DNA of 64,000 nt from assembly GCA_022376925.1 (NCBI GenBank), contig JAIOJX010000025.1:137289301-137353300 (forward strand), read 5' to 3'. The stretch is from Tragulus kanchil (lineage: Eukaryota; Chordata; Mammalia; Artiodactyla; Tragulidae). Below the pieces are notes generated by a model. The model did no database searches, was not told where the DNA came from, and was given only the letters and a program-made list of their open reading frames with translations. Below are positions 2,892 to 64,000 of the stretch, piece after piece; position 1 is the stretch's first letter; each line of letters begins with the position of its first letter. Both the position numbers and the translations under genes were made by a program.

Positions 2892-3207
2892 TAGCTAACT
2901 ATTACCTTTTGAGGACAGGGGTCAGATGGAGGATGGAAGCCAATCAACCAATTTCACTATCTCCAAATTCACACATCATAGTACTTACTATAAAGAAACA
3001 CTCACATATGAGTACAAGAGTACTCATTAGAACACTGTTTCCAATAGAATGGAAACCACCTAAAAGTCCACCAGAAGGAAAGCACTTAAACTATCAACAC
3101 TTCACACTATGAAGCAGTCAAGGAATGAGATAATGCCTGAAACTAACACAGTATTGTAAATTACCTATACTTAAACAAAAAAAAGAGGCAAATACTTATG
3201 TCCAAAC

Positions 3208-3426
3208 ACTGGGCTTCTTAGACTGGCACTCGTGGTAAAGAATCCACCTGCCAATGCAGGAGATACAAGAAACGTGGATTTGATCCCTGGGTTGGGAAGA
3301 TCCCCTGGAGAAAGGAATAGAAACCCACTCCAGTATTCTTTCTTTGGAAATCCCATGGACAGAGGAGCCTGGAGGGCTACAGTCCATGGGGTCACAAAGA
3401 ATTGGGCACAACTTAGCAACTAAATA
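3208..3426 (+). mobile_element. Bov-tA SINE (copy at 4332-4540 via D1)
   Basis: It contains ggtaaagaatccacctgcca, ttgatccctgggttgggaag and ggagaaagg, ending in cacaacttagcaact. The tRNA-like head is partly broken in the 4332 copy. Confidence 0.88.
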
Positions 3427-3618
3427 ACAACAAAAGAAAGATGCAAATACATATGTCAACATAGGAATATCACCAAGATAAGTTATTGAATAAAAACTTA
3501 TAAATGATAAGTACAACTGATGCCACTCACATAAAAATAAAATGCACACATATTTGAGGCTAAATATGAAATTTTTAATTTTTAATTTAATTTTAGAAAA
3601 GATATAATTTTAAAACAT

Positions 3619-3815
3619 GTGTGCTTAGTTGCTCAGTTATGTCTGACTCTTTGCGGTCCCACGGACCTGCCAGGCTCCTGTGTCCACGGGATTCTCCAGG
3701 CACGAATACTAGAGTGAGCTGCAATGCTCTCCTTTAGGGGATCTTCCCAACCCAGGGATTGAACCCAGGTCTCCCACATTGCAGGAGGATTCTTTACCAT
3801 CTGAGCCACAAGAGA
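3619..3815 (-). mobile_element. Bov-tA SINE inverted (copy at 4736-4932 via D1)
   Basis: Inverted element from gtgcttagttgctcag to catctgagccacaaga; the two copies are identical. Confidence 0.88.
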
Positions 3816-5203
3816 CATATAAAATGAAAAATTAATTTTTATATTAAAAATTAATAAATATAATTTAAACATAATTTTATAGAAAATTGATTTTATCTGT
3901 TATAGGAAAACATATATTAAAATGACAGTAATACTTATACCTGGAGTAGCAAATAGAATAAAACAGGTCAAAAGAGACTTTAACTTACCCTGTAATGCTC
4001 TAAAATTTACAATAAAAATTTTTTGTGTGTACTTCCTGTACAATTTATGGAAACAACATATTTTTTAAAAAATTTTAACCTCTTCCTTTTTTGGGGATTA
4101 ATTTATTTTCATCCATGCTTATTCTTTGGCCTGTGTGGGCCTCCATCGCAGTGGCCTCTCTGGCTGCAGAGCACTGGCTCTGGGCACATGCGTTCCAGAG
4201 CACCGGCTCATAATTGGACACACTGGTACAGCCGCTCCATAGCACGTGGGATCTTCCTGGCTAGGAATCAAACTGGTGCCTTTGCACTGCAAGGCGTTAA
4301 ACAAAAAAAGAGGCAAATACTTATGTCCAAACACTCCACTGGCACTCGTGGTAAAGAATCCACCTGCCAATGCAGGAGATACAAGAAACGTGGATTTGAT
4401 CCCTGGGTTGGGACGATCCCCTGGAGAAAGGAATAGAAACCCACTCCAGTATTCTTTCTTTGGAAATCCCATGGACAGAGAAGCCTGGCAGGCTGCAGTC
4501 CATGGGGGTCACAAAGAATTGGGCACAACTTAGCAACTAAATAACAACAAAAGAAAGATGCAAATACATATGTCAACATAGGAATATCACCAAGATAAGT
4601 TATTGAATAAAAACTTATAAATGATAAGTACAACTGATGCCACTCACATAAAAATAAAATGCACACATATTTGAGGCTAAATATGAAATTTTTAATTTTT
4701 AATTTAATTTTAGAAAAGATATAATTTTAAAACATGTGTGCTTAGTTGCTCAGTTATGTCTGACTCTTTGCGGTCCCACGGACCTGCCAGGCTCCTGTGT
4801 CCACGGGATTCTCCAGGCACGAATACTAGAGTGAGCTGCAATGCTCTCCTTTAGGGGATCTTCCCAACCCAGGGATTGAACCCAGGTCTCCCACATTGCA
4901 GGAGGATTCTTTACCATCTGAGCCACAAGAGACATATAAAATGAAAAATTAATTTTTATATTAAAAATTAATAAATATAATTTAAACATAATTTTATAGA
5001 AAATTGATTTTATCTGTTATAGGAAAACATATATTAAAATGACAGTAATACTTATACCTGGAGTAGCAAATAGAATAAAACAGGTCAAAAGAGACTTTAA
5101 CTTACCCTGTAATGCTCTAAAATTTACAATAAAAATTTTTTGTGTGTACTTCCTGTACAATTTATGGAAACAACATATTTTTTAAAAAATTTTAACCTCT
5201 TCC

Positions 5204-5448
5204 TTTTTTGGGGATTAATTTATTTTCATCCATGCTTATTCTTTGGCCTGTGTGGGCCTCCATCGCAGTGGCCTCTCTGGCTGCAGAGCACTGGCTCTGG
5301 GCACATGCGTTCCAGAGCACCGGCTCATAATTGGACACACTGGTACAGCCGCTCCATAGCACGTGGGATCTTCCCTGGCTAGGAATCAAACTGGTGCCTT
5401 TTGCACTGCAAGGCGAATTCTTTACCCACTGGACCACCAAGGAAGCCC
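5204..5448 (-). mobile_element. CHR-type SINE inverted (three copies: 4087-4296 partial, 5204-5448, 6289-6534)
   Basis: Inverted CHR-type element with ggcctccatcgcagtggcc and ggaccaccaaggaagccc. It is flanked by tggaaacaacatatttttt and tggaaacaatatttttt, a probable target-site duplication. D1 and D2 overlap here and give the locus three representations. Confidence 0.8.
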
Positions 5449-6230
5449 GTGGAAACAATATTTTTTTAAAAAGAAGCTCTTAAAGAGACAGTCAGAAAGA
5501 ATTTACCTCTTTAGTGCTTTCCCTGAGGACTCTGGAACAAGACAGAGTTTCAACTCCTCCTCACCTGTGTTTTCATTCCTTTTTAGATTTCTTGTGTTTA
5601 TTTAGTGAAGAACGCTTCACATCTCAAGAAAAAGAACTGGGGAAGAGCAAAAGAGGGAGCAGAAGAAAGAAGGATGATAAGGAGGGGCAGAGGAAGAGGG
5701 AGAAGGGGGAGGTAAGGTGAGGAAAGCCAGGGTAACCATTCCTGTACTTTTACTTTGTGGGGAAAAGGAGCTCCAGTCTCAGACTCCTGGCCCTCCCACT
5801 TCACACTGCATCGACCGGAGCAAGTATCTTCACTACTGGATCCTCCATTTCCCCTCCTGCAAACCACAGAGTAAGAAAGCCTACGCTGTCTAGCTTGGGG
5901 TCAGGCACACAGTAGGGTGTAAGAAAACTTCTGACAGGGCTATAGTGCCAGAGCCTCCGGGCAGGTGCTGGCTGACTCTTCTAAGGCTGGACGATGATGA
6001 ATTCCATCTGATGGAGACCAGCTATGTCGTCCTATCTGTTCTCTGACCAAGAGAAGGAAAGGAGACCTCATCAGCAAACCTGAACTTTGCATCTGCAGAA
6101 ACCCTCAGACACAGCTTCATCCGTCCTGTGGGCTGCTGTCGTCAGGAGGCTACGTCTGCAGCACCTGACAGTTTGCACCACATTTTTGTCCAATCCCAAA
6201 ATGCTGATTCTCTGACTCACTTGTGTTTTT
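5449..6230. other. Unique sequence, repeated at 6535-7278
   Basis: It contains a purine-rich tract (about 5630-5715) and otherwise unassigned sequence, reproduced almost exactly through D2. No gene recognised. Confidence 0.45.
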
Positions 6231-7284
6231 TTACTTCCTGTACAATTTATGGAAACAACATATTTTTTAAAAAATTTTAACCTCTTCCTTTTTTGGGGAT
6301 TAATTTATTTTCATCCATGCTTATTCTTTGGCCTGTGTGGGCCTCCATCGCAGTGGCCTCTCTGGCTGCAGAGCACTGGCTCTGGGCACATGCGTTCCAG
6401 AGCACCGGCTCATAATTGGACACACTGGTACAGCCGCTCCATAGCACGTGGGATCTTCCCTGGCTAGGAATCAAACTGGTGCCTTTTGCACTGCAAGGCG
6501 AATTCTTTACCCACTGGACCACCAAGGAAGCCCGTGGAAACAATATTTTTTTAAAAAGAAGCTCTTAAAGAGACAGTCAGAAAGAATTTACCTCTTTAGT
6601 GCTTTCCCTGAGGACTCTGGAACAAGACACATTTCGCAGAGTTTCAACTCCTCCTCACCTGTGTTTTCATTCCTTTTTAGATTTCTTGTGTTTATTTAGT
6701 GAAGAACGCTTCACATCTCAAGAAAAAGAACTGGGGAAGAGCAAAAGAGGGAGCAGAAGAAAGAAGGATGATAAGGAGGGGCAGAGGAAGAGGGAGAAGG
6801 GGGAGGTAAGGTGAGGAAAGCCAGGGTAACCATTCCTGTACTTTTACTTTGTGGGGAAAAGGAGCTCCAGTCTCAGACTCCTGGCCCTCCCACTTCACAC
6901 TGCATCGACCGGAGCAAGTATCTTCACTACTGGATCCTCCATTTCCCCTCCTGCAAACCACAGAGTAAGAAAGCCTACGCTGTCTAGCTTGGGGTCAGGC
7001 ACACAGTAGGGTGTAAGAAAACTTCTGACAGGGCTATAGTGCCAGAGCCTCCGGGCAGGTGCTGGCTGACTCTTCTAAGGCTGGACGATGATGAATTCCA
7101 TCTGATGGAGACCAGCTATGTCGTCCTATCTGTTCTCTGACCAAGAGAAGGAAAGGAGACCTCATCAGCAAACCTGAACTTTGCATCTGCAGAAACCCTC
7201 AGACACAGCTTCATCCGTCCTGTGGGCTGCTGTCGTCAGGAGGCTACGTCTGCAGCACCTGACAGTTTGCACCACACTTTCCTC

Positions 7285-9119: not shown

Positions 9120-9369
9120 ATTGAACCCTGCTTGGGACATGAGCCCACGTGGCTGGAGCTTGAATTCCAGCCAAAACCCTGTTTGGGACTTGAACCCACG
9201 TCACTGGGGCTTGAACCTAGCCAAAACCTGGTTTAGGACTCAAACCCACGTGGCTAAGGCTTAACCCCAGCCAAAACCCTGCTTTGGACTTGAATCCATG
9301 TAGTCAGGACTCAATCACAGCCAAAACCCTGTCTGGGACTCGAACCCACGTGGCCAGGACTTAATCCAG
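9120..9369 (-). repeat. Five-unit tandem array with exact 50-bp period
   Basis: The phrase gccaaaac starts at 9170, 9220, 9270 and 9320, with a partial unit from 9120. Each unit also has (c)ccacgtggc-like text and a ggacttgaaccc-like string. On the minus strand these resemble the pol III B-box GGTTCRANYCC; the last unit matches it perfectly at 9336-9346. Confidence 0.85.
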
Positions 9370-9914: not shown

Positions 9915-10340
9915 TTTTGTATCAATATTATATGCATCAAGATGAAAGCACATAAAAAACAAATATCATATGTGAACGCATACATGTGGCATCTAGAAGC
10001 ATGGTACTGACGAACTCACTTGCCGGGCAGGAACAGAGACGCAGATATAGGGAACAGACTTGTGGACACAGTGGGGGAAGAAAAGAACAGGACAAACTAA
10101 GAGAGGAGCAATGATATAAATACATTACCATATGCAAAATAGCTAGCTAGTGGGAAGCTGCTATATAACACAGGGAGCTCAGCTCCGTGCTCTGTGAGGA
10201 CCTGGAGGGGTGGGATGGAGGGGTGGGAGAGGCAATATACATATGCTTATAGCTGATTCACATTGTTGTGCTGCAGACACTAATGCAATGTTGTAGAGCA
10301 ATTATATTCCAAGTAATTTTTTTTTTAATTTTAGAGTAAA
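9915..10340 (+). mobile_element. Ruminant L1 3' end
   Basis: It ends with agctgattcacattgttg, then caatgttgtagagcaattat and an A/T tail, the usual L1 3' end of ruminants. 5'-truncated. Confidence 0.7.
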
Positions 10341-10680
10341 AACTAAATAAAAAAACAAAGCACATGAAAACCATTGGGAATCATGTCATGAATTCAACCT
10401 ATACATCCCTATATAAAAGAGATTCCCTATTCTCTATTCACTCTGTCTTATAGAAAATAAAGCTGACGTGACTTAGAATTGAGAGTTACTAGTCAGATGA
10501 GAACTGAGACCAAAGATAACTAAGCTTTTGGCCCTCTGACCTTGTCTTAAACATGTATGACTTATCATCATTAAAGAGAATCTCCTGCCCATCATGGATA
10601 TTATAGATTTGAATAGTGTAGAGTAGTTTTTGTAAATTCAGCGTAAGACAGAGGAAGAGAGTCTCCTCCATACAGTGTGG

Positions 10681-10905
10681 TAATTAAGGGAATGAACTTG
10701 AGGGTTCAACAGAATGGATGTGAGTTCACACTCCGTCTCGTCTTAACAGTCATGTATTCAAGACAAATAATTTAATCTCTAGGGCATCCATTTCCTCACT
10801 TGAAATGTGGGGATAAGAAAAGTACCTACCTTACTGGTTTACTGTGAGGATGGGTCGACACATTCAACTACTTGTTCATGATACCTGACATTTTAGTTAT
10901 CATTA
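10681..10905 (+). mobile_element. MIR (copy at 11814-12038 via D3)
   Basis: gatgtgagttcacactcc, atttcctcacttgaaatg and tactgtgaggatgggt follow the MIR order. Confidence 0.6.
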
Positions 10906-10965
10906 GAGCCAGAAGCAGACGAAAGAAATAATAGCAAGCTTTAAAAAAAAAAAAAAAACTTGGAT

Positions 10966-11366
10966 ATTTTAATTTATTTTGCTGTGCTAGGTCTTAGAGC
11001 TTCCCAGGTGATGCAGTGGTAGAGAATCCACTTGCCCATGCAGGAGACACAGGAAATGCAGGTTCAATCCCTGGGTCAGGAAGATTCCCTGGAGTAGGAA
11101 ATGGCATCCCTGGAGTAGGAAATGGCAACCCACTCCAGTATTCTTGTCTGGAAAATTCCATGGACAGAGGAGCCTGGTAGGTTATAGCCCAAGGGATACA
11201 AAGTGTTAGACATGACTGAGCACACACACTCACATGCTGGGTCTCAGCTGCGGCATGTGAACTCGTAGTTGTGGCATATGGCATCTAGTTCCCTGACCAG
11301 GGATTGAATCCTGCTTCCTGCATTGAGAGCATGGAGTCTTAGCCACTGGACCACCAGGGAAGTCCT
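10966..11366 (-). mobile_element. CHR-2 SINE split by a Bov-tA (copy at 12099-12500)
   Basis: An inverted CHR-2 (ends gccactggaccaccaggga) is interrupted at tgctaggtctta / tgctgggtctca, the imperfect target-site duplication of the nested Bov-tA. Confidence 0.75.
11000..11226 (+). mobile_element. Bov-tA nested in CHR-2 (copy at 12132-12360)
   Basis: A + strand Bov-tA with a local direct repeat: ccctggagtaggaaatggca occurs twice, 20 bp apart (about 11089 and 11109). Both duplication copies share this repeat, so it predates D3. Confidence 0.85.
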
Positions 11367-12599
11367 GGACATACCTTCTTAAAACTAAGTCCAAGTACTA
11401 AAATTATTCTTCTAGAATAATTTTCTCTATATGCCTGGAGTACAGACAAAATTATAGAGTAAAACTAATTTTTTTTAAAAAACTAAATAAAAAACAAAGC
11501 ACATGAAAACCGGAATCATGTCATGAATTCAACCTATACATCCCTATATAAAGAGATTCCTATTCTCTATTCACTCTGTCTTATAGAAAATAAAGCTGAC
11601 GTGACTTAGAATTGAGAGTTACTAGTCAGATGAGAACTGAGACCAAAGATAACTAAGCTTTTGGCCCTCTGACCTTGTCTTAAACATGTATGACTTATCA
11701 TCATTAAAGAGAATCTCCTGCCCATCATGGATATTATAGATTTGAATAGTGTAGAGTAGTTTTTGTAAATTCAGCGTAAGACAGAGGAAGAGAGTCTCCT
11801 CCATACAGTGTGGTAATTAAGGGAATGAACTTGAGGGTTCAACAGAATGGATGTGAGTTCACACTCCGTCTCGTCTTAACAGTCATGTATTCAAGACAAA
11901 TAATTTAATCTCTAGGGCATCCATTTCCTCACTTGAAATGTGGGGATAAGAAAAGTACCTACCTTACTGGTTTACTGTGAGGATGGGTCGACACATTCAA
12001 CTACTTGTTCATGATACCTGACATTTTAGTTATCATTAGAGCCAGAAGCAGACGAAAGAAATAATAGCAAGCTTTAAAAAAAAAAAAAAAACTTGGATAT
12101 TTTAATTTATTTTGCTGTGCTAGGTCTTAGAGCTTCCCAGGTGATGCAGTGGTAGAGAATCCACTTGCCCATGCAGGAGACACAGGAAATGCAGGTTCAA
12201 TCCCTGGGTCAGGAAGATTCCCTGGAGTAGGAAATGGCATCCCTGGAGTAGGAAATGGCAACCCACTCCAGTATTCTTGTCTGGAAAATTCCATGGACAG
12301 AGGAGCCTGGTAGGTTATAGCCCAAGGGATACAAAGTGTTAGACATGACTGAGCACACACACTCACATGCTGGGTCTCAGCTGCGGCATGTGAACTCGTA
12401 GTTGTGGCATATGGCATCTAGTTCCCTGACCAGGGATTGAATCCTGCTTCCTGCATTGAGAGCATGGAGTCTTAGCCACTGGACCACCAGGGAAGTCCTG
12501 GACATACCTTCTTAAAACTAAGTCCAAGTACTAAAATTATTCTTCTAGAATAATTTTCTCTATAGTATGCCTGGAGTACAGACAAAATTATAGAGTTGA

Positions 12600-13388
12600 A
12601 ATAGAGATTTTTATAAGCATCATTTCCCTTACAGCAAATTCAACACCTAAATCACCCCATGGAGTATCAGTCATCCTGTATTAGATAAAACTGAAGGAGA
12701 AATATCTTCCTCCTCTTCATAAAGCAACCATATCACAACGTTATTATTTAAAGCTTTTATATACTAGTCAGCAATTTTCCCGTTTCTACATTAGCTCTGT
12801 TAAATAGCTGGTCACCATCCTGTGTCTAAAAGTATATAATCAGCGATCAGTTTCATATACCTCCACCCCACAAGAATGACTTTAAGCATTCCCTCTGTAA
12901 TTCACTTTGGCATACTTAATGATAATTTTATTGTATTTTAGTTCCTGGATAAAGTTTCAGAGACTATAATACACTAACCATTAGTATAGCCTCTAAACAT
13001 ATATTATAGGATGAATGGATTCGGAGATGGGACTAGATGAGTAAATAAATATGTTAAGTAACCTTTTGTAGAGCTCTCACCCAAGCCAAAGGAAAAAAAA
13101 AAAAATTTCGGGATGAACCAAAGAACATTAGCGCCACCTGGAGACAGGAATCAAGAAATGCAAGGAAGATGAGAATGACCGCCCTGAATCTGGCAGCAGA
13201 GATGTTCTAGCCCTGGATGTAGCACGCCTGTGGCTGTTGAGCACCTAAAACGTGGCTAGATGTGCTGCAGAAGTAAAACACACACCAGATGCCTAAGGCT
13301 TAACATGGAAAAAAAGAATCTAAAATATTCCATTCATAATGCTTATACTGATGGTATGTTAAAACATAGCTCACCTTATCTTTGCATC
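12600..13388. other. Intergenic, no firmly recognised feature
   Basis: A/T-rich; a short stretch near 13200-13260 resembles an old mammalian DNA repeat but I cannot name it. No gene seen. Confidence 0.4.
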
Positions 13389-15027: not shown

Positions 15028-15350
15028 AGGCAGTTAGCAGCAACATGAATGGACCTAGAGATTATCATATTAAGTGAAGTCAGAAAAAAAAGACAAATAT
15101 TGTATGATATCACTTATATGTGGAATCTAAAACAATAATACAAATGAACTTATTTACAAAGCATAAACACTCATGACATAGAAAATAAACTCATGGTTAC
15201 CAAAGGACAAAGAGGAAGAGGGATAAATTCGGAGCTTGGAAATAACAGATACACATTAGTTTACATAAAACAGATGAACAACAAACTCCTACTGTATAGT
15301 ACAGGCAACTATATTCAATATCTCATAATAACCTATAATGGGAAAAAATC
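15028..15350 (+). mobile_element. Ruminant L1 3' end
   Basis: aacatgaatggacctagaga, gtatgatatcacttatatgt and tactgtatagtacaggcaac are L1 3' UTR phrases. D4 repeats only its tail. Confidence 0.75.
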
Positions 15351-17417
15351 TGAAAAAAGAATATACATATAAAATAATAATAGACAAATATATATATAAA
15401 TCATAATTGATTACCATTAATATCCCCAAAATGCACATATCATTTCTGTGGCAATGAGGTATGCAATGCCTTATAACATTTCTTGTATTAACATACTGGA
15501 CAGCTGTGAAACGATTCATTCATTCAACAATATACACTGAGCACTTACATGCCAGGCACTGACCTAGCACTAGAGAAAGTTAAGGAATAAAACAATCGCT
15601 GCCCTCCTGGAGCATTTGTTCTCAATAAGCACGTAAGTATCGACAGTACATCAGATTGTAATGAGTGATGCGGGGAATGTTAAGGGTAGTCTCTCTTCAT
15701 TTTGAGTGGAGACCCCTAAGAAGCAAACGAGATCATGCAGGTATCTGAAGGAGAGCTGCCTGCTCCCATGGAACAAAGTGGTCCTAAGGCAGGGAGTGTG
15801 CTCAGCAGGTTGAGGAGCACTGAGGAGGCCGCGTGAGGGCTGGGGGAGTGGACATGAGAAAGAATAGGAGAGGAAGTCAGAGAGGGATCAAGGGCCAGAC
15901 CAGGGAGGACGCTGGACGCCACCATGAGCACCCTGGATGTTCTTTAAGCACAAGGAAGACCCACTAGAGGGTTTCCCATGACATGACACGATCTAGACTT
16001 TCCCTTTAGGACTCACTCCCCTTTTAGATGCCGGGCTGGAACCAGACCTCAGGGGTCAAGACAGAAGTGAGAGTTAGAAGATTATTATAATCACCCAGGC
16101 AAGAAATGATGGTCACTTGGACCAGGATCATCGTGGCGGAGACAAGGAAATGGTCTCCATAAAATTCTAGACATATTTTGAAGGTAAAACTAGCAGGATT
16201 TTCAGGCGGATCAGATGTGCTACATGAAAAGACAACACCTCAAGTTCTTTGAGCAATCGAGATACCAGCTCCTTGGAAAACTGAGATGTGAGTAGATTTG
16301 GTTGGAGAGAGGTGTGGGAGAGAGATCAGAGACTGATTTTAGAGAAAATTGTTTATGTACCAAATCTATGTATAGTACAGGCAACTATATTCAATATCTC
16401 ATAATAACCTATAATGGGAAAATCTGAAAAGAATATACATATAAAATAATAATAGACAAATATATATATAAATCATAATTGATTACCATTAATATCCCCA
16501 AAATGCACATATCATTTCTGTGGCAATGAGGTATGCAATGCCTTATAACATTTCTTGTATTAACATACTGGACAGCTGTGAAACGATTCATTCATTCAAC
16601 AATATACACTGAGCACTTACATGCCAGGCACTGACCTAGCACTAGAGAAAGTTAAGGAATAAAACAATCGCTGCCCTCCTGGAGCATTTGTTCTCAATAA
16701 GCACGTAAGTATCGACAGTACATCAGATTGTAATGAGTGATGCGGGGAATGTTAAGGGTAGTCTCTCTTCATTTTGAGTGGAGACCCCTAAGAAGCAAAC
16801 GAGATCATGCAGGTATCTGAAGGAGAGCTGCCTGCTCCCATGGAACAAAGTGGTCCTAAGGCAGGGAGTGTGCTCAGCAGGTTGAGGAGCACTGAGGAGG
16901 CCGCGTGAGGGCTGGGGGAGTGGACATGAGAAAGAATAGGAGAGGAAGTCAGAGAGGGATCAAGGGCCAGACCAGGGAGGACGCTGGACGCCACCATGAG
17001 CACCCTGGATGTTCTTTAAGCACAAGGAAGACCCACTAGAGGGTTTCCCATGACATGACACGATCTAGACTTTCCCTTTAGGACTCACTCCCTTCTAGAT
17101 GCCGGGCTGGAACCAGACCTCAGGGGTCAAGACAGAAGTGAGAGTTAGAAGATTATTATAATCACCCAGGCAAGAAATGATGGTCACTTGGACCAGGATC
17201 ATCGTGGCGGAGACAAGGAAATGGTCTCCATAAAATTCTAGACATATTTTGAAGGTAAAACTAGCAGGATTTTCAGGCGGATCAGATGTGCTACATGAAA
17301 AGACAACACCTCAAGTTCTTTGAGCAATCGAGATACCAGCTCCTTGGAAAACTGAGATGTGAGTAGATTTGGTTGGAGAGAGGTGTGGGGAGAGAGATCA
17401 GAGACTGATTTTAGAGA
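15293..17417. repeat. Tandem duplication D4 (units 15293-16345 and 16369-17417)
   Basis: The offset is 1072-1076 bp. Homopolymers at the start of copy 2 are shorter (gggaaaatctgaaaag versus the longer A runs at 15340-15360). A G is missing near the end of copy 1 (about 16318). A 23-bp filler separates the units. Confidence 0.93.
15515..16345. repeat. Ancient mammalian interspersed repeat, family uncertain (copy at 16591-17416)
   Basis: It starts with the common cattcaacaatatacactgagcac motif and continues into text (gacatattttgaaggtaaaac) related to pieces at 28880-29000 and 39390-39860. It looks like a dispersed ancient repeat. Confidence 0.45.
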
Positions 17418-17599
17418 TGAATTTTTAAGATGACTTTTAAATATTCATTTTTTATCAATTGGACAGACTAGTGCAGCATTCAAGGGAAGGCTGAGGCTGG
17501 AGTCCATGGCATTATTTCAGTCCTGGGGTATGAGGTCAACAAAGACATCAGTAGAAATGGAGTCAAGAAGAATTTCAGGACTGAGCTTTGGAATATCCA

Positions 17600-24961: not shown

Positions 24962-24964
24962 TCT

Positions 24965-45341: not shown

Positions 45342-45593
<252 letters not shown>

Positions 45594-46470: not shown

Positions 46471-46722
<252 letters not shown>

Positions 46723-49750: not shown

Positions 49751-49943
49751 ATGTTGCAGTTTATATTTCTCCTCCTTTTGAGAAGCTCCGCCCTTCACAT
49801 TTACTTCCAATGATTTTCTTCATTGGCTGGAGCCAGTCAAGTCAGCATTCAAGGTTTCCCTAGAAATGGCTCCGGTGAAATCCTTCAGAAAGTGTTTTTC
49901 TGATAGAAGACTGCAATAAAGAAGACATCAAACCAGGCTTAGC

Positions 49944-50245
49944 GGGCTTCCCTGGTGGTCCAGTGGTTAAGGACACCACCTTGCAGTGCAAGGGGCGCCG
50001 GTTCAATCCCTGGCCTGGGAAGATCCCACGTGCCGTGGAGCGGCTGGACCAATGTGTCCAATTACCGAGCCGGAGCTCTGGGGCGCATGCGCCCAGAGCC
50101 GGCGCTCTGCGACAACAGAGGCCACCATGATGGGAGGCCCACACGGGCCAAAGAACAAAGATGGATGAAACTAGACAAAGACCAGTGGAAGTGGCCCGCC
50201 CACCCCCCACCCTTGCCAAAATAAATAAATAAATAAATGTTTTTT
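49944..50245 (+). mobile_element. CHR-type SINE (copy at 50988-51289 via D13)
   Basis: Standard head ggcttccctggtggtccagt. The two copies differ at about a dozen sites in the body, far more than their flanks. Confidence 0.82.
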
Positions 50246-50565
50246 TAAAAAATCAAAAACAAAAAAACCAGGTTTATCTATAAAAATGCCAAGTCATCTC
50301 ACCACACAAGAGTGCATCACAAGAGGGTGAGACAGAGCCGACCCCTGTGCCTGAAGCCCTTGGAGAAGGAACAAGAGCATGTCCCCATCTGGGCCCCTGG
50401 AGCTGTCCCTGGCTGAGTGCACGCCTCCTTCATCCTCAGGGATGGCATTTTTACCTCTGTACTTGGGAAATTACATCAGGATAGTTTTCAAGTCATAGGA
50501 AAAGAATAAGTAGATAATTGTGTGTTCTACAGACTATGATTTTTTTTGATGTGCTGAGCCTCTGA

Positions 50566-50904
<339 letters not shown>

Positions 50905-51608
50905 TAGAAATGGCTCCGGTGAAATCCTTCAGAAAGTGTTTTTCTGATAGAAGACTGCAATAAAGAAGACATCAAACCAGGCTTAGCGGGCTTCCCTGGT
51001 GGTCCAGTGGTTAAGGACACCACCTTGCAGTGCAAGGGGCGCCGGTTTGATCCCTGGCCTGGGAAGATCCCACGTGCCGTGGAGCGGCTGGACCAATGTG
51101 TCCAACTACCGAGCCGGAGCTCTGGAGCGCATGCGCCTGAGTCAGTGCTCTGCGACAACAGAGGCCGCCGCGATGGGAGGCCCACATGGGTCAAAGAAAA
51201 AAGATGGATGAAACTAGACAAAGACCAGTGGAAGTGGCCCGACCACCCCCCACCCTTGCCAAAATAAATAAATAAATAAATGTTTTTTTAAAAAATCAAA
51301 AACAAAAAAACCAGGTTTATCTATAAAAATGCCAAGTCATCTCACCACACAAGAGTGCATCACAAGAGGGTGAGACAGAGCCGACCCCTGTGCCTGAAGC
51401 CCTTGGAGAAGGAACAAGAGCATGTCCCCATCTGGGCCCCTGGAGCTGTCCCTGGCTGAGTGCACGCCTCCTTCATCCTCAGGGATGGCATTATTACCTC
51501 TGTACTTGGGAAATTACATCAGGATAGTTTTCAAGTCATAGGAAAAGAATAAGTAGATAATTGTGTGTTCTACAGACTATGATTTTTTTTGATGTGCTGA
51601 GCCTCTGA

Positions 51609-51881
<273 letters not shown>

Positions 51882-52199: not shown

Positions 52200-52496
52200 G
52201 CTATTCTACTCTACCCCTACTCTAACTCTCTAGCTGAGGTGAGCAGGCTTCTTGTTGCGGTAACTTCTCATTGTGGAACTCAGGCTCTAGGGCACATGGG
52301 CTTCAGTAGTTGAGTAGTTGTGGCTCATGGGCTCCATAGTTGCGGCTCTGAGGCTCTAGAGCGCAGGCTCCATAGCTGTGGCTCACTGGCTTAGTTGCTC
52401 CGCAGCATGTGGGATCTTCCCAGACCAGGGATCGAACCCGTGTCTTCTGCATTGGCAGGCAAACTCTTTACCACTGAGCTACCAGGGAAACCCCAC
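52200..52496 (-). mobile_element. CHR-2 SINE inverted, in intron 4
   Basis: tctctagctgaggtgagcag to gagctaccagggaaacccc, with the repeated ctccatagttgcggctc units. Confidence 0.82.
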
Positions 52497-53113: not shown

Positions 53114-53434
53114 TCAAAACTGGATCACCTGGTGCTTTCTCTTCTTATCACCTCCCAGCTCAAAATGCTTGCATCCCTTAATAGCCAGTATTCTCTTAGA
53201 TCTGCAGTTGGGCTCAACACATTCAAGCCTTGGCACAATCTTTTTTGTAGTTTTAGCCGCTTTCCAGAAAATTGGCTTTGTCCGCCCACCATAGCCACTC
53301 TGCTTCCTGTCATAACGCCGCTTTCCCTGTGCATACAGAGAATCCTTTCCCTTCTTGTACTGTGTCACTTTGTGGGGTTGGTGCTTGCCACACTTCTTAC
53401 AGAAAGTCTGGCGGGTTTTAGGAATGTTCACCAT
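53114..53434 (-). pseudogene. RPL36A-like: RPL36A/RPL36AL (eL42) processed retrocopy, intact frame
   Basis: This is an intronless copy of the large-subunit ribosomal protein eL42, antisense within SRD5A3 intron 4. The frame is complete: 106 codons, [20 protein letters not shown] through KHQVIQF. All four zinc-ribbon cysteines (12, 15, 72, 77) are kept. Compared with the mammalian protein as I know it, about ten residues differ, including Q51R in the GGQTKP motif and changes near 57-60, 68, 87 and 101. This suggests relaxed constraint. The 5' UTR begins CTTTCTTTCTGTG, a 5'TOP-like start, just inside a target-site duplication. A poly(A) remnant (T run at 53048-53060) ends the 3' side. No promoter of its own is visible, so it is most likely a processed pseudogene with an accidentally preserved frame. 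Confidence 0.88.
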
Positions 53435-53580
53435 GTTTGCAAGAGCGCTACCAGCACAGAAAGAAAGCCAGAGCTAGGATTTGAACTCATGCAGTCTGAC
53501 TCTAGAGTCTGAGCTCTTAATCACTAGCTTAGAGGATTGTTGCAGAAATAGCGTCTCTTTTGTTAGTTACAGTTAGTATA

Positions 53581-53795
53581 GGTTCCCCAGGTGGCGCTAG
53601 GAATGCGCCTGCCAATGAAGGAGACATAAGAGATGCGGGTTCAATCCCTGGATCAGGAAGATCTCCTGGAAGGGGGCATGGCAACCCACTCCAGTATCCT
53701 TGCCTAGAGAATCCCATGGACAGAGGAGCCTGGCAGGCTACCGTCCGTGGGTCGCAAAGATTCAAACACAACTGAAGCGACTTAGCACGCACACA
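53581..53795 (+). mobile_element. Bov-tA SINE (copy at 54714-54928 via D14)
   Basis: ttccccaggtggcgctagga to aactgaagcgacttagcac; the copies are identical. Confidence 0.9.
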
Positions 53796-53927
53796 AGCAC
53801 CACTGTATAACCTCAGTGTGTGACTTTTTAATATGTAGATTGACAGGGCAGTGTGACAGGATGATGGTTTGTAGAGGTCTGTGGCACCCTTTTCTCAGTG
53901 AGTTTTTATAAATTATTTGGGGAGTGA

Positions 53928-54248
<321 letters not shown>

Positions 54249-54309
54249 GGTAACCTCAGCTATGAAGAACGCAAACCAGGTGACTGGTTCAATTCCTAAG
54301 GACAAGGAA

Positions 54310-54567
54310 CTTAATAGCCAGTATTCTCTTAGATCTGCAGTTGGGCTCAACACATTCAAGCCTTGGCACAATCTTTTTTGTAGTTTTAGCCGCTTTCCAG
54401 AAAATTGGCTTTGTCCGCCCACCATAGCCACTCTGCTTCCTGTCATAACGCCGCTTTCCCTGTGCATACAGAGAATCCTTTCCCTTCTTGTACTGTGTCA
54501 CTTTGTGGGGTTGGTGCTTGCCACACTTCTTACAGAAAGTCTGGCGGGTTTTAGGAATGTTCACCAT
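54310..54567 (-). pseudogene. RPL36A-like: RPL36A retrocopy, second copy truncated by duplication junction
   Basis: This is a repeat of the 5' four-fifths of the antisense eL42 retrocopy (codons 1 to about 86). The remaining codons and poly(A) tail are missing because duplication D14 begins inside the element. Beyond the junction the frame runs into SRD5A3 3' sequence. It is not an independent retrotransposition: it has no second target-site duplication, and the shared flanks are identical to copy 1. Confidence 0.85.
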
Positions 54568-55060
54568 GTTTGCAAGAGCGCTACCAGCACAGAAAGAAAG
54601 CCAGAGCTAGGATTTGAACTCATGCAGTCTGACTCTAGAGTCTGAGCTCTTAATCACTAGCTTAGAGGATTGTTGCAGAAATAGCGTCTCTTTTGTTAGT
54701 TACAGTTAGTATAGGTTCCCCAGGTGGCGCTAGGAATGCGCCTGCCAATGAAGGAGACATAAGAGATGCGGGTTCAATCCCTGGATCAGGAAGATCTCCT
54801 GGAAGGGGGCATGGCAACCCACTCCAGTATCCTTGCCTAGAGAATCCCATGGACAGAGGAGCCTGGCAGGCTACCGTCCGTGGGTCGCAAAGATTCAAAC
54901 ACAACTGAAGCGACTTAGCACGCACACAAGCACCACTGTATAACCTCAGTGTGTGACTTTTTAATATGTAGATTGACAGGGCAGTGTGACAGGATGATGG
55001 TTTGTAGAGGTCTGTGGCACCCTTTTCTCAGTGAGTTTTTATAAATTATTTGGGGAGTGA

Positions 55061-55381
<321 letters not shown>

Positions 55382-56080
55382 GGTAACCTCAGCTATGAAG
55401 AACGCAAACCAGGTGACTGGTTCAATTCCTAAGGACAAGGAAGTCTAAAGACCAAAGTACAGTTTCTATGGAATGGCTTGAAACTCTTTCCTTTTCTGTT
55501 CCCAAAAGTCTTCACCATGTGAGCAAAGCCACGCCCCTCCAGAAAAATGAATCTTCGGAGAAGAACTACTTCCGGCAGATGTGGGAGTGCTGTGTCTGCT
55601 TTCTGAGATGTGCTATAGAACCACCAAGTGCTAAAAAGCAAAGGAGACTTCAAGCTGCTTCAAAAACAAACTAACCAATACAGGAACAGCCTCTCTCACA
55701 CACAGATACATACAAAGGAAGAGACGGCTCATCTGTGGCTTTGTTTTTGCTCTGGTCAAACTAGACAGCAGGGTAAGCAATATACTAGGTGCTTAGTAAT
55801 GCTTGTTGCATTTCAGTCAAAGCAGAATAGCCCTTGAAAATAACAACAGTGTATAATTTCACAGCATGGATTCCGGGAAAGTGAGCCTACTGAAGTGAGT
55901 TTACGCTTTCACTTGTTTCACAAAGGCTTCCTGTTACGTAACCATCAGTAGTCATCTCCCCCTCAAGGCACAGCTTCACAGAAAGTCTGAAACCTCTTCT
56001 ATTTAATATTTTTTGGACATCCTTTCTAGAGAGTACCTTAAAAGTGAAAGCATCTAAAATAAAATATTTTTATATTTATG
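55382..56080 (+). other. SRD5A3: SRD5A3 3' UTR (copy 1) with AATAAA
   Basis: This is A/T-leaning sequence following the stop codon, without a conserved reading frame. A canonical AATAAA sits at 56058-56063 in an A/T-rich context about 680 bp after the stop, a plausible polyadenylation signal. The cleavage site cannot be proven here. The 68-codon open frame inside this block is not a gene; it is simply UTR sequence. Confidence 0.55.
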
Positions 56081-56495
56081 CATAAAAAGTCTTCTTGAAT
56101 GGAACTGACTTACACTCCAGATTGGATAGCACTGTAGCCTCATTCATATGGAGTTATTCAAATTGGATTAATATTTGCCTGAGTCAATTTTAACTAATAG
56201 AATGAATCCAAAGATGTTTAAAGTTCACACTTAAAATAGCTTATATTAAAGAAAATGCTGGGCTTCCCTGGTGGTCCAGTGGGTTGAGGGTCCGCCTTGC
56301 AGTGCAAGGGGCACCAGGTCAGTCCCCGGCCAGGGAAGATCCCACGTGCCATTTAGCAACTGTACCGGTGTGTCCAATGGTTAACCATCGCTCTGGAGCA
56401 CATTCGCCCATAGCCAGTGCTCTGCAACAGGAGAGACCACTGCAATGGGAGGCCGCAGGCCAAGGAATAAAGATGGATGCCAGGAAGATCCCACG

Positions 56496-57220
56496 TGCCA
56501 TTTCTCTTTTGAGGTAACCTCAGCTATGAAGAACGCAAACCAGGTGACTGGTTCAATTCCTAAGGACAAGGAAGTCTAAAGACCAAAGTACAGTTTCTAT
56601 GGAATGGCTTGAAACTCTTTCCTTTTCTGTTCCCAAAAGTCTTCACCATGTGAGCAAAGCCACGCCCCTCCAGAAAAATGAATCTTCGGAGAAGAACTAC
56701 TTCCGGCAGATGTGGGAGTGCTGTGTCTGCTTTCTGAGATGTGCTATAGAACCACCAAGTGCTAAAAAGCAAAGGAGACTTCAAGCTGCTTCAAAAACAA
56801 ACTAACCAATACAGGAACAGCCTCTCTCACACACAGATACATACAAAGGAAGAGACGGCTCATCTGTGGCTTTGTTTTTGCTCTGGTCAAACTAGACAGC
56901 AGGGTAAGCAATATACTAGGTGCTTAGTAATGCTTGTTGCATTTCAGTCAAAGCAGAATAGCCCTTGAAAATAACAACAGTGTATAATTTCACAGCATGG
57001 ATTCCGGGGAAAGTGAGCCTACTGAAGTGAGTTTACGCTTTCACTTGTTTCACAAAGGCTTCCTGTTACGTAACCATCAGTAGTCATCTCCCCCTCAAGG
57101 CACAGCTTCACAGAAAGTCTGAAACCTCTTCTATTTAATATTTTTTGGACATCCTTTCTAGAGAGTACCTTAAAAGTGAAAGCATCTAAAATAAAATATT
57201 TTTATATTTATGCATAAAAA
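56496..57220 (+). other. SRD5A3: SRD5A3 3' UTR (copy 2) with AATAAA
   Basis: This is the duplicate of the last coding bases and 3' UTR (D15). It begins within the final codons of exon 5 (PFLF and stop) and repeats the UTR, including AATAAA at 57190-57195. It lacks exon 5's acceptor and main body, so it cannot act as a separate terminal exon. Copy 2 leads into intact downstream SINE sequence. Confidence 0.55.
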
Positions 57221-57390
57221 GTCTTCTTGAATGGAACTGACTTACACTCCAGATTGGATAGCACTGTAGCCTCATTCATATGGAGTTGTTCAAATTGGAT
57301 TAATATTTGCCTGAGTCAATTTTAACTAATAGAATGAATCCAAAGATGTTTAAAGTTCACACTTAAAATAGCTTATATTAAAGAAAAGGC

Positions 57391-57655
57391 TGGGCTTCCC
57401 TGGTGGTCCAGTGGGTTGAGGGTCCGCCTTGCAGTGCAAGGGGCACCAGTTCAGTCCCCGGCCAGGGAAGATCCCACGTGCCATGGAGCAACTGGACCGG
57501 TGTGTCCAATTGTGAACCAGCGCTCTGGAGCACATGCGCCCAGAGCCAGTGCTCTGCAACAGGAGAGACCACTGCAATGGGAGGCCCACGCAGGCCAAGG
57601 AATAAAGATGGATGAAAATAAATAAAAAACCAATGAAGAGGCCACAATTTTAAAA
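57391..57655 (+). mobile_element. CHR-type SINE (truncated, error-rich copy at 56260-56479)
   Basis: ggcttccctggtggtccagt head to an A-rich tail. The upstream copy lacks the tail and differs at many positions in its last 150 bp. Confidence 0.83.
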
Positions 57656-58015: not shown

Positions 58016-61000
58016 ATTATAATCTACTAGGTACTAAAGTTTTACACTAAGATATACTCTGCTCTGAGGGAAAACACCTCATTAGTAACCAGATGTATGT
58101 GGTCTAAGAATATCCTCCCCACCTGCGTCTCTGGAGTAGTAAACTAAAGCTGTCAAACAGATTCTTCTTAATATGACTTTCAATATGTGTTTATCAGCAC
58201 ATATTCTAAAGTTCTTACAATTCTGAAGTAGCATATTCTCCCCAACAATCAAATGCCACTTCATGAACTGCTCAGTCTACTCAAATAAAAGACATACCCA
58301 TTTATCGTTTAGATTTGCCATCCTCAGGACCAGGATTCGGGAACAAAACTTTCTATATCAGAAATGCAAAGCCTATTGCATTTTGGTCTTAATTTCCACA
58401 CAAATGGCATAAATAATTCCAGTGGCATACTATTTGGGGAGAAAGATGTATTTTCCTTTAGTGTGCAGTTTTGTACTAGGTTAGAGAAGGAATGTGGCTG
58501 CTCTTCTGGAATTTCACTGCACTCGAGTAAAACAATGAGCATCCCCGGGGGAGGCCTGGGATGAGAGGCGCCGGTCCACCCCGCTCTACCGCGCCCTCAC
58601 TACCCACCTCCCACTTCTGTCTCCTGCTCTCCCTTCCCCTTTCTGGCCCAAACGCTGCAAGTCTAGGTGAAAACAGAAAAGGAAGTAATGGTTTTCTCAA
58701 GGGGGTTCAGAACAAAGTCATGTGGTCTTTGATGAACACGCAACCATGGAGAATTGAAAATTGTGCTGTGTTGCAAGATCACTACCAGCAGTGCTCTCTG
58801 TACCTAAAGGAAGAGCACCAGAGAGCATCTGCCAGTTCTTCCCAAGGATAATCCAGAAAATACCTTGGGGGTTGGGGGTTGTTGACTTACCTGTTAGCTT
58901 AGCTGAACAGCTTTACTCTGTTATTCTCTGTTACTATTAAGTTCAAGGGAAATGATACTGAACTATATAACAGCATTCCCTGGGTTAACTACTGACTAGA
59001 AAAGTATGCTAAAAATAGCCTCTGTTTTTAAGTCTCCAAGTTGTAGCCCGGCCTCTATGTTAACATTTGCTTCCAGTGAGCATGGGTGATTTTCTCTCCA
59101 CAAAGCTTTGTCCTGTATTGTTTTTAATTCAGTGAGTGGTTATTGCTGGAATTCCTATCCAAAAAGAAGAAAAGCCTTTGCTGATATTTTTATATGAAGC
59201 AAAATGGATAGTCTAAGACTGTAAACATTTACATAACTAAAGTTACCTGAAAATTCAAGGACCGTTGATAAGTAATCTGTCTCAAAATGAATGGATATAT
59301 TAAAGAAGTCATAAAATAGTAAATGAGCAAGTAGAAATCTTTTACACTTATCTAAGCAGTATCTGTCCACTTGCTCACATTGTTTATCAGAAAAGAATTA
59401 GTCACCTGATTTTCATCAGTGTCTTATACTGGTCTGACCTAAGATGTTTCTGAGAAATGGGTAAGAAACAATGGAGGTGGCAGTGATCCCTAAACAATTC
59501 CTATGCTGCAGACGTCAGCATTTTTCTCAAATGCCAGTGACCTAGAAAGCCATGTATTGGTTTTAAATTTCATTATTTGAATAATTATTTGAAATAAAAT
59601 CTAATTATTTGTATAAACATTGTATTATAAAGAGCTACCCTACGCACATGTCAGGTCTCTTCAAAGAAGATCTGAGCATCCCTGGGAGGCCTGGGATGAG
59701 AGGCGCGGTCCACCCCGCTCTACCGCGACCTCACTACCCACCTCCCACTTCTGTCTCCTGCTCTCCCTTCCCCTTTCTGGCCCAAACGCTGCAAGTCTAG
59801 GTGAAAACAGAAAAGGAAGTAATGGTTTTCTCAAGGGGGTTCAGAACAAAGTCATGTGGTCTTTGATGAACACGCAACCATGGAGAATTGAAAATTGTGC
59901 TGTGTTGCAAGATCACTACCAGCAGTGCTCTCTGTACCTAAAGGAAGAGCACCAGAGAGCATCTGCCAGTTCTTCCCAAGGATAATCCAGAAAATACCTT
60001 GGGGGTTGGGGGTTGTTGACTTACCTGTTAGCTTAGCTGAACAGCTTTACTCTGTTATTCTCTGTTACTATTAAGTTCAAGGGAAATGATACTGAACTAT
60101 ATAACAGCATTCCCTGGGTTAACTACTGACTAGAAAAGTATGCTAAAAATAGCCTCTGTTTTTAAGTCTCCAAGTTGTAGCCCGGCCTCTATGTTAACAT
60201 TTGCTTCCAGTGAGCATGGGTGATTTTCTCTCCACAAAGCTTTGTCCTGTATTGTTTTTAATTCAGTGAGTGGTTATTGCTGGAATTCCTATCCAAAAAG
60301 AAGAAAAGCCTTTGCTGATATTTTTATATGAAGCAAAATGGATAGTCTAAGACTGTAAACATTTACATAACTAAAGTTACCTGAAAATTCAAGGACCGTT
60401 GATAAGTAATCTGTCTCAAAATGAATGGATATATTAAAGAAGTCATAAAATAGTAAATGAGCAAGTAGAAATCTTTTACACTTATCTAAGCAGTATCTGT
60501 CCACTTGCTCACATTGTTTATCAGAAAAGAATTAGTCACCTGATTTTCATCAGTGTCTTATACTGGTCTGACCTAAGATGTTTCTGAGAAATGGGTAAGA
60601 AACAATGGAGGTGGCAGTGATCCCTAAACAATTCCTATGCTGCAGACGTCAGCATTTTTCTCAAATGCCAGTGACCTAGAAAGCCATGTATTGGTTTTAA
60701 ATTTCATTATTTGAATAATTATTTGAAATAAAATCTAATTATTTGTATAAACATTGTATTATAAAGAGCTACCCTACGCACATGTCAGGTCTCTTCAAAG
60801 AGACTGAACACTTGAACTGCTTAGTGGACCAAAGAACACAGAGATTTCTCTGCAGAAAGACTGTCTCCTGAGTCGAGCCCTCTGGGCGAAACCCGGAAGC
60901 ACATGTGCAGTTTTCATCAGGGCTCCCTGGCCTACATGGCACCTTCTGTGAATGTTATAAAGCTGTTCTTCTAGGAGGACCCAGTGAGAGCAGGCATGAG

Positions 61001-61796
61001 CCTCTGTGGGCACCATGGGCAGCTGCTGATGGGACTGCAACTCAGTGAGCAGCTCTTGAGCTGATCTCAGCCCAGTCGTTCTTCTGCTCAGTGCCCACTG
61101 TGTGGTGAACAGGCTGCACCACTGTCTAGTAGAGCCCCGGCTCATCGCACTGCCTGTCTGCAGAGTCTGTTCCCTCTAAGAAGACAAGGCTTGGTTTCAT
61201 GGAATCCTCTCGTTGAGAAAGACTGTAAGAATAAAACTAGAAAGGGAAGTAAGCACTCCATGCAAAACATCTGTGCTTCCACCCGCCAAAAGAGCAGCAG
61301 GTAAGTGACTCGCAAAAGCAGCAAGCTCAGATGCGAGTCCCAAGTCGAGTGTTTTGCTCTCTGATCACCGTCTCCTTTCCAGCCAATTGTTCTCATACAG
61401 CAACTCCAACAGCCCTTCTTCCCCTGCTGGGACCCGCAGTCTATTAACACTGATATCATGACATCATTATTGTCCTTCTTCTCTAGGTCTTATCTCCTGA
61501 CCCTACTGAAGAGAATCATTTGAATTATCCCTTTGTATAAATCCCTGACTCTCCTGCCTCCCTACATTGCTTCTTCCTGCTGATTTAACTAAGCACACCC
61601 TGGTCAAATTCAGCCCTCCCTCCTGGAGTGTGCTCCTATGCACCTTAAGTATGGCCGGAGAAAGAGTCCCCAAAGGTCCCCCTTCACGTTCCTGGCCACC
61701 ACCCCCAAGTGGTCCTCGCTGCTGCCGTCTCAGTGCCCATCCCTGGTCCGTTCACTCTCCCGCTGCGCTAACCGAGTCACGTCTGTGCCCTCAGGA
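58016..61796. other. Downstream intergenic sequence, partly duplicated by D16
   Basis: No gene recognised. A 96-codon open frame at 58561-58851, repeated in extended form at 59620-59985, has no similarity I know and no splice evidence. Confidence 0.45.
58537..60801. repeat. Tandem duplication D16 (units 58537-59667 and 59674-60801)
   Basis: The offset is 1134 bp. Copy 2's first 60 bp shows small deletions and a substitution relative to copy 1 (near 59682-59730). The rest is near-identical unique sequence. Confidence 0.93.
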
Positions 61797-62043
61797 GGGT
61801 GGAGATGCTGGAAGTCAACTTCCACAGGTTACCATCACTGCACCCTCCCAAGCAGCTGCCTTTTTATGGTGTCTGCCCTCGTTACCATTGTTGAAAGATA
61901 AGAATCATGATTCTCATGCAAATATAAAATAAACATGTGCCAAAGGATTCTACTGAAGTCCTGGTGAAGGAACTAGTAAGACATCAGAACCCATTCAAAG
62001 AAGAATCAAAGAGCAGACATGTACATGGAGAACGTGTGTGCAT

Positions 62044-62250
62044 GTATGCGTGCTCAGTTGCTTCAGTTGTGTCCGAGTCTGCAACCCCGTGGACTGTAGC
62101 CCACCAGGTTCCTCTGTCCATGGGAATGCTCCAGGCAAGAGTACTGGAGTCTGTTACCATTGCCTTCTCCAGGGGATCTTCCCCACCCAGGGATCGAACC
62201 TGCCTCTTACGCCTCCTGCATAGGGAGGTCAGTTCTCTACCACAAGCCTC
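62044..62250 (-). mobile_element. Bov-tA SINE inverted (copy at 63130-63336 via D17)
   Basis: gcgtgctcagttgcttcagt to tctctaccacaagcc. It differs at one base between copies near 62211 / 63297. Confidence 0.88.
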
Positions 62251-62519
62251 TGCACGGGGACAGTCCCAGGGCTTGCCGTGGGAAGCCAGCTGGCCAGTCC
62301 TTGTCATCTGCACATCCACCCATGCTCCCTCCTGACCCTGGGACAGGAAGTGCTGGCACTCAGGCGGCAGAATTTATCAGTAAATTAGTACCAAACACAC
62401 GAGCATATCAGGGAAATACTACAATTCTTAGAATTTACAATCTCTAACAGCTGCAATGTTGTGAAGCAAATAACCACATGTGTAGAAATGAAATGAAGAG
62501 ATTATCACATTCTACAGAA

Positions 62520-62877
62520 AAAAGAAACAAAGCACCATAAAGAAGATGTGGGACGTATACTCAGCTGTTAAAAAGAAGAACTTGTTTAACCTTGGTGGTC
62601 CAGTGGTTCACTGTGTGCTTCCAAGGCAGGGGACATGGGCTCAATCCCTGATCGGGGAAGTTCTGCGAAGAAAAAAATGAAATTTCGCCATAGGTGACCT
62701 TGGCGGGTGTTATACTTAGTGGAGTAAGTCAGAGAAAAAGAAATACTGAATGTTATCACGTATATGTGGAATTTAAAATAAAACAGGTGAATATAACAAA
62801 AAGGCTCACAGATACAGAGAAAAAACCAGTGGTTATCAATGAGAAGAGAGGAGAGGCAATATATAGGTAGGGGATTG
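62520..62877 (+). mobile_element. L1 3' end with inserted CHR-2 fragment (copy from 63606 to window end)
   Basis: gacgtatactcagctgttaa, gttatcacgtatatgtggaa and aaggctcacagatacagaga are L1 3' phrases. A SINE head fragment (ggtggtccagtggttcac) sits at 62590-62672. The second copy runs past the window edge. Confidence 0.7.
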
Positions 62878-64000
62878 CCCAAGGGTGGAGATGCTGGAAG
62901 TCAACTTCCACAGGTTACCATCACTGCACCCTCCCAAGCAGCTGCCTTTTTATGGTGTCTGCCCTCGTTACCATTGTTGAAAGATAAGAATCATGATTCT
63001 CATGCAAATATAAAATAAACATGTGCCAAAGGATTCTACTGAAGTCCTGGTGAAGGAACTAGTAAGACATCAGAACCCATTCAAAGAAGAATCAAAGAGC
63101 AGACATGTACATGGAGAACGTGTGTGCATGTATGCGTGCTCAGTTGCTTCAGTTGTGTCCGAGTCTGCAACCCCGTGGACTGTAGCCCACCAGGTTCCTC
63201 TGTCCATGGGAATGCTCCAGGCAAGAGTACTGGAGTCTGTTACCATTGCCTTCTCCAGGGGATCTTCCCCACCCAGGGATCGAACCTGCCTCTTACGTCT
63301 CCTGCATAGGGAGGTCAGTTCTCTACCACAAGCCTCTGCACGGGGACAGTCCCAGGGCTTGCCGTGGGAAGCCAGCTGGCCAGTCCTTGTCATCTGCACA
63401 TCCACCCATGCTCCCTCCTGACCCTGGGACAGGAAGTGCTGGCACTCAGGCGGCAGAATTTATCAGTAAATTAGTACCAAACACACGAGCATATCAGGGA
63501 AATACTACAATTCTTAGAATTTACAATCTCTAACAGCTGCAATGTTGTGAAGCAAATAACCACATGTGTAGAAATGAAATGAAGAGATTATCACATTCTA
63601 CAGAAAAAAGAAACAAAGCACCATAAAGAAGATGTGGGACGTATACTCAGCTGTTAAAAAGAAGAACTTGTTTAACCTTGGTGGTCCAGTGGTTCACTGT
63701 GTGCTTCCAAGGCAGGGGACATGGGTTCAATCCCTGATCGGGGAAGTTCTGCGAAGAAAAAAATGAAATTTCGCCATAGGTGACCTTGGCGGGTGTTATA
63801 CTTAGTGGAGTAAGTCAGAGAAAAAGAAATACTGAATGTTATCACGTATATGTGGAATTTAAAATAAAACAGGTGAATATAACAAAAAGGCTCACAGATA
63901 CAGAGAAAAAACCAGTGGTTATCAATGGGAAGAGAGGAGAGGCAATATATAGGTAGGGGATTAAGAGCTATAAACTACTAGGTATAAAATAGACACAAGG

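Follow-up and report, generated by a model that had tools for sequence, protein, structure and literature searches.

The DNA analyzed here is a 64,000-bp window of the Tragulus kanchil genome assembly (GCA_022376925.1, JAIOJX010000025.1:137,289,301-137,353,300, forward strand). The assembly comprises 3,167,203,957 bases in 32 contigs, and the window lies on contig C8. It carries the five coding exons of SRD5A3 on the plus strand and, spanning positions 3171-63962, 17 adjacent head-to-tail duplications of about 1.1 kb. A sequence-only reading of the window had described these duplications and proposed that contig ends with a fixed overlap had been abutted instead of merged. We compared the window with itself, aligned each pair of copies, scored the differences between them as events, and searched for the same doublings elsewhere in the assembly.

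Self-comparison reproduced the place, number, size and amount of the units as first described. Start-to-start spacing ranges from 1045 to 1163 bp (mean 1101.8, standard deviation [sd] 34.4); the narrow size class thus stands, while the limits first given for it, 1.04-1.13 kb, prove slightly too tight. Individual copies are 1040-1151 bp long, and the two copies of a unit share 97.2-99.9% identity. The 17 units add 18,730 bp, or 29.3% of the window, where about 18.6 kb and 29% had been estimated. When one copy per unit is retained, 45,270 bp are left, and the sole self-match longer than 600 bp in this reduced sequence is one stretch inverted onto itself. A blastn scan of the window for adjacent direct repeats (repeats of at least 22 bp, copies no more than 120 bp apart) returned, besides the 17 units, no more than a dinucleotide array and a minisatellite of 50-bp repeats. 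The minisatellite (9124-9367, about five 50-bp copies) lies outside the units. There are no undetermined bases (N) in the window, so that no gap occurs at any of the 17 junctions, and neighbouring junctions are 1.85-10.4 kb apart.

All units were delimited by self-comparison and pair alignment, and none is assigned a strand. Unit 1 (3171-5415) consists of copies 3171-4296 and 4297-5415 and has its junction at 4296/4297; the last 267 bases of its first copy (4030-4296) recur at 5147-5415 and once more at 6232-6500. Within this unit, 3233-3799 together with 4349-4916 matches its own reverse complement (about 630 columns, 64%), possibly representing an old hairpin-like element. Unit 2 (5147-7280; copies 5147-6186 and 6232-7280) has 45 bases between its copies. 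It is followed by unit 3 (10323-12612; 10323-11473 and 11469-12612), unit 4 (15274-17427; 15274-16355 and 16355-17427), unit 5 (17765-19939; 17765-18853 and 18845-19939), which contains a short interspersed nuclear element (SINE), and unit 6 (22833-24971; 22833-23914 and 23890-24971). In unit 7 (26205-28402; 26205-27303 and 27302-28402) the end of the first copy, 26978-27303, matches 28076-28402 and recurs a third time at 29165-29492. Next are unit 8 (28076-30222; 28076-29132 and 29165-30222), unit 9 (30192-32320; 30192-31258 and 31252-32320) and unit 10 (32251-34537; 32251-33387 and 33414-34537). Units 11 (34559-36732; 34559-35646 and 35644-36732), 12 (44880-47134; 44880-46005 and 46009-47134), 13 (49744-51870; 49744-50823 and 50789-51870) and 14 (53177-55454; 53177-54320 and 54310-55454) hold SRD5A3 exons 1, 3, 4 and 5, respectively. 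The series ends with unit 15 (55365-57614; 55365-56479 and 56496-57614), unit 16 (58536-60810; 58536-59678 and 59673-60810) and unit 17 (61796-63962; 61796-62876 and 62882-63962). Between-copy stretches at 6187-6225, 29133-29162, 33390-33413 and 56480-56495 match either template poorly; some resemble a degraded continuation and one resembles a piece of a SINE. A tRNA-like match to Rfam RF00005 on the minus strand (52417-52488) lies near a SINE and is probably tRNA-derived.

The consequence for SRD5A3 is that, of its five coding exons, exon 2 (43490-43636) alone is present once. Exon 1 (coding part, 35063-35284 and 36149-36370), exon 3 (45363-45560 and 46492-46689), exon 4 (50611-50745 and 51654-51788) and exon 5 (coding part, 53985-54245 and 55118-55378) each lie entirely within a unit, and their two copies are identical. 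The exons were located by searching the window with the human SRD5A3 protein. When joined, they encode a protein that matches Pfam PF02544 and is 93.1% identical to its goat and 91.8% identical to its dromedary counterpart (ungapped); the exon search, the Pfam match and the relatives all agree with the name first given to the gene. These identities, along with the SINEs, make a ruminant source likely. Orthologs were compared at the protein level. The search found 471 relatives, and the figures that follow rest on the best 120 of these: four exact motifs taken from exons 3-5 occur singly in 31-43 records and doubled in none, the rest having no exact motif. A comparison with goat SRD5A3 had been suggested as a check, and in both the goat and the red deer relative each exon stretch is found at most once (the exon 1 part is absent from the red deer record, and the goat record contains an additional stretch of 10 residues).

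The doublings extend well beyond this locus. We sampled 22 stretches of 10 kb (220 kb) on 15 contigs of the same assembly, at round-number coordinates set before any stretch was inspected; 20 of them lie on 13 contigs that a genome search had listed (including two on C8, far from the window) and one each on C5 and C10. Units were gathered at 93% identity and a length above 900 bp. Every one of the 22 stretches contains at least one complete unit, which rules out a burst of duplication confined to this locus. The sequence-only reading had already considered such a burst less likely, and its suggestion that other scaffolds be self-aligned for the same size class is answered by these units; its description of the doublings as belonging to one 64-kb locus understates their extent. 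In total, 49 complete units were found, with another 12 cut by stretch ends. Spacing of the complete units averages 1117 bp (sd 44.5, range 1012-1209) and their copies are 96.2-100% identical, all 49 overlaps exceeding 300 bp and 95% identity. Pooling window and sample gives 66 units with a mean length of 1113 bp (sd 47), none shorter than 1000 bp; 65 fall within 1024-1225 bp, and one measures 1286 bp. Junctions in the sample occur about once per 3.5 kb. Second copies make up 24.9% of the sampled sequence if only complete units are counted, and by simple arithmetic about 32% if cut units are included (61 junctions in about 213 kb, each adding 1.12 kb). Doubling was also encountered in searches of the genome. 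The matches listed for a SINE-bearing piece include at least six equal-score pairs spaced 1.11-1.22 kb apart (on C2, C4, C7, C23, C30 and C32), although many others are single. A relative of SRD5A3 on contig C6 (56970956-56972312), 37% identical over 98 residues, occurs twice at a spacing of 1087 bp.

The differences between copies are concentrated beside the junctions and have a direction. We defined two junction-facing zones, namely 110 bp from the start of copy 2 and 60 bp from the end of copy 1; these widths were picked after inspection of the window data, so that the independent sample is the fairer test. In the window, 76 of 124 difference events fall within the two zones, compared with 19.1 expected if events were uniformly distributed and a maximum of 35 in 5000 random placements. 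Near the start of copy 2, bases are missing from copy 2 in 26 events and from copy 1 in two; near the end of copy 1, they are missing from copy 1 in 19 events and from copy 2 in six (Fisher p = 2e-7). The sample repeats this pattern, with 270 of 360 events in the same zones (54 expected; maximum of 77 in 1000 placements). At the start of copy 2, bases are missing from that copy in 88 events and from copy 1 in 35; at the end of copy 1, that copy lacks bases in 52 events and copy 2 in 15 (p = 6e-11). Even between the zones, the sample keeps this direction: over the first half, copy 2 is the deficient one in 17 events and copy 1 in 7, and over the second half, copy 1 is deficient in 17 and copy 2 in 7. 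Each copy is thus worst where it faces the other, which marks the ragged end of a consensus piece. The losses include multi-base deletions in mixed sequence, such as those of three, two and four bases within a short stretch of unit 1, and these suggest thin long-read consensus rather than short-read contigs.

The remaining 48 events in the window lie in the middle of the units and are unevenly spread, with 15 in pair 13, 11 in pair 15 and none in five of the 17 pairs. In unit 13, many differences between the copies (49944-50219 and 50988-51262) fall within a SINE and are mostly transitions, far fewer being seen elsewhere except at the unit ends; these could possibly derive from short-read polishing that drew in reads belonging to SINEs elsewhere. 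Copy 1 of unit 15 contains a cluster of G/T swaps near its end (56256-56411). The swaps run in both directions, and simple oxidation therefore does not explain them. At most swap sites, copy 2 agrees by eye with other SINE copies in the window, and copy 1 is probably the erroneous one.

At five places in the window, successive units overlap, the second copy of the earlier one running into the first copy of the later one (by 269, 327, 31, 70 and 90 bp), and some bases are accordingly present three times. We compared the three copies at two of the five. At the first, the interior copy (5147-5415) is identical to the start of the next piece (6232-6500), and the copy at the end of a piece (4030-4296) is short of two bases. 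At the second, both piece ends have defects of their own near the end. The middle piece is thus fully covered by its two neighbours, as is expected of tiled overlapping pieces.

Taken together, we put the probability that the doublings are an artefact present throughout the assembly, and absent from the animal, at about 98%. Within this, the most probable origin, and one we consider likely, is a layout-consensus step in which neighbouring pieces with a nearly fixed overlap were written out without being merged. An assembly built from long-read consensus pieces would, by construction of its layout, give neighbouring pieces an overlap of nearly fixed length, about 1.1 kb, and the ends of these pieces would carry poor, deletion-rich consensus. 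If the pieces were output end to end with the overlap retained in both, about 1.1 kb would be doubled at each join, and closely placed joins would leave some bases threefold. Such a step is indicated by the nearly constant unit length, by the sample's freedom from content bias (described below) and by the gapless window. The original proposal of overlaps abutted and not merged is supported by the recurrence of one size class in every sampled stretch, by base loss directed toward the junction in both copies, replicated in the independent sample, and by the coverage of a piece by its neighbours at the threefold places. In wtdbg-type assemblers, nodes of 1,024 raw bases are used and adjacent layout units are joined over nodes, with a default of 256 bp in the layout. 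Fixed nodes of this type, in which 1,024 deletion-prone raw bases would correspond to about 1.1 kb of true sequence, would be a candidate for the origin of the units. An origin in a de Bruijn k-mer of homopolymer-compressed sequence is unlikely because the coefficient of variation of unit length is larger in compressed than in raw sequence (5.4% and 3.1% in the window, 5.2% and 4.0% in the sample); constant length in compressed space was accordingly rejected.

Several observations weigh against the unmerged-overlap explanation or parts of it. Overlaps between adjacent units reach 453 bp, more than expected of fixed nodes, and the unit starts in the window show no signal of a 256-bp grid (p = 0.44, 0.28 and 0.19 for periods of 256, 265 and 275). 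The junctions in the window are free of N, whereas published false duplications are mostly gapped (PMC8081667, PMC9516828); the fault must therefore have preceded scaffolding, or gaps must have been stripped. Genome size is a further difficulty. Removing the extra copies (25% to about 32%) from 3.17 Gb would leave about 2.15-2.4 Gb, which is lower than the 2.59 given in a single table row for a Java mouse-deer assembly, where we take the unit to be Gb and the match of species is a guess. This shortfall may reflect the small sample, collapsed repeats or a wrong species match.

The main rival, which like the chunked polishing considered below would itself be an assembly artefact, is two-sided gap filling, in which contigs flanking a short gap would each have been extended by long reads through and past the gap by a bounded length and then abutted. 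It would explain why unit lengths lie just above 1000 bp, as two flanks of about 500 bp and a small gap would give, and it has a precedent in the 'overfilled' gaps of PBJelly, which are described in the relevant part of that report as flank extensions without identifiable overlap that nonetheless exceed the gap (PMC3504050). It also finds support in the content of the window, where repeats occupy 23.5% of the units and 11.6% of the sequence outside them (p = 0.002-0.02 by rotation in four runs and 0.03-0.05 by random placement in three), and where a repeat is found no more than 100 bp from nine of the 17 unit centres (p = 0.02, one of several uncorrected tests). Both figures also count against placement independent of content, which the sequence-only reading had asserted. 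That assertion looked doubtful in the window but stands on the larger sample, where SINE-like sequence, identified with a repeat library derived from the window only, makes up 6.1% of units and 6.9% of the remainder (p = 0.68), GC content is 0.431 both inside and outside units, and extremes of GC at unit centres are not enriched (p = 0.15). As a pointer to former gaps, a bias in repeats or GC is thus suggestive in the window and absent from the independent sample. Gap filling would moreover require gaps as frequent as the junctions, about one per 3.5 kb, and no N remains at any junction in the window. We therefore regard it as possible, although unlikely.

Other explanations fare less well. 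If the genome had been cut into overlapping chunks for polishing and rejoined untrimmed, nearly fixed overlaps regardless of content would follow by reasoning alone, but chunks would be even-sized and the distances between junctions in the window run from 1.85 to 10.4 kb; we consider this origin very improbable. Heterotype false duplication, in which two parental haplotypes are placed side by side, could account for pairs that differ in mid-unit, above all pairs 13 and 15. Against this, five pairs have no middle difference at all, most differences are directed and adjacent to the junction and not spread as those between haplotypes would be, copy 1 of pair 15 is probably in error, and haplotype divergence would not yield one size class. 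We judge it to have hardly any chance of being correct.

Genuine tandem duplication in the animal, whether local or genome-wide, is more improbable still. The copies do stand head to tail without N, and the inferred breakpoints of the 17 junctions show a mean of 1.5 bp of exact homology (7 bp in unit 9 and 6 bp in unit 3), where randomly paired positions show 0.7 bp. Because the search for breakpoints is itself biased toward homology, we draw nothing from this as a clue to origin. Real duplications would be expected at some loci and in varied sizes, with one new junction and unbroken sequence right up to it; instead, a single size class recurs in all sampled stretches, both copies decay toward the junction, and the exon motifs are never doubled in the relatives compared. 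That a mammalian genome should truly carry tandem doublings of about 1.1 kb every few kb on all chromosomes, through one unknown process, is scarcely credible, the directed errors beside the junctions being strong evidence to the contrary.

Although the finding is not one of biology, it matters to every user of the assembly. Between a quarter and a third of the sampled sequence consists of second copies, and single-copy exons appear twice. Gene models, copy-number estimates, segmental-duplication calls and genome-size figures taken from the assembly would be wrong, with sizes and duplication rates inflated. Screening for this fault is simple: aligning an assembly with itself at an offset of 1.0-1.3 kb would reveal it, together with base loss toward the junction.

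Our search of the literature, mainly at the level of titles and abstracts, noticed no description of a 1.1-kb size class or of this assembly, and the units are best placed by comparison with known assembly faults. They may resemble unmerged layout units of the wtdbg2 type in that a shared node of about 1,024 raw bases fits their size, and differ in that overlaps between units of up to 453 bp exceed the 256-bp default.

Overfilled gaps of the PBJelly type share with the units the failure to recognize extensions from both flanks as overlapping. In the part of the report that describes them they are flagged at gaps (PMC3504050), while the window examined here is gapless and the sample shows neither repeat nor GC bias. 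Duplicated overlapping contigs, in the passages of Kelley and Salzberg (2010; PMC2864568) that define them, are neighbouring pieces whose ends align but neither of which is discarded, leaving a stretch of more than 300 bp and more than 95% identity present twice near piece ends, with exons doubled in consequence. All 17 units in the window exceed 300 bp and 95% identity and align within 300 bp of the inferred piece ends, as do all 49 complete units of the sample. The same passages concern separate contigs and put the fault down mainly to haplotype divergence, whereas the junctions in the mouse-deer assembly lie inside continuous sequence, the doubled length is nearly fixed and joins recur about once per 3.5 kb. 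Homotype false duplication at contig boundaries, as outlined in sections of the Vertebrate Genomes Project report (Rhie et al., 2021; PMC8081667) and of Ko et al. (2022; PMC9516828), likewise repeats one genomic locus at the boundaries of pieces with uneven consensus quality between the copies. In those accounts, the copies are often as long as a corrected read and are separated by a gap; the mouse-deer units measure 1.1 kb and, at the junctions in the window, have no gap. They share with homotype duplications, as far as sequence differences reveal it, a consensus quality that is uneven between copies and errors that lie beside the boundary.

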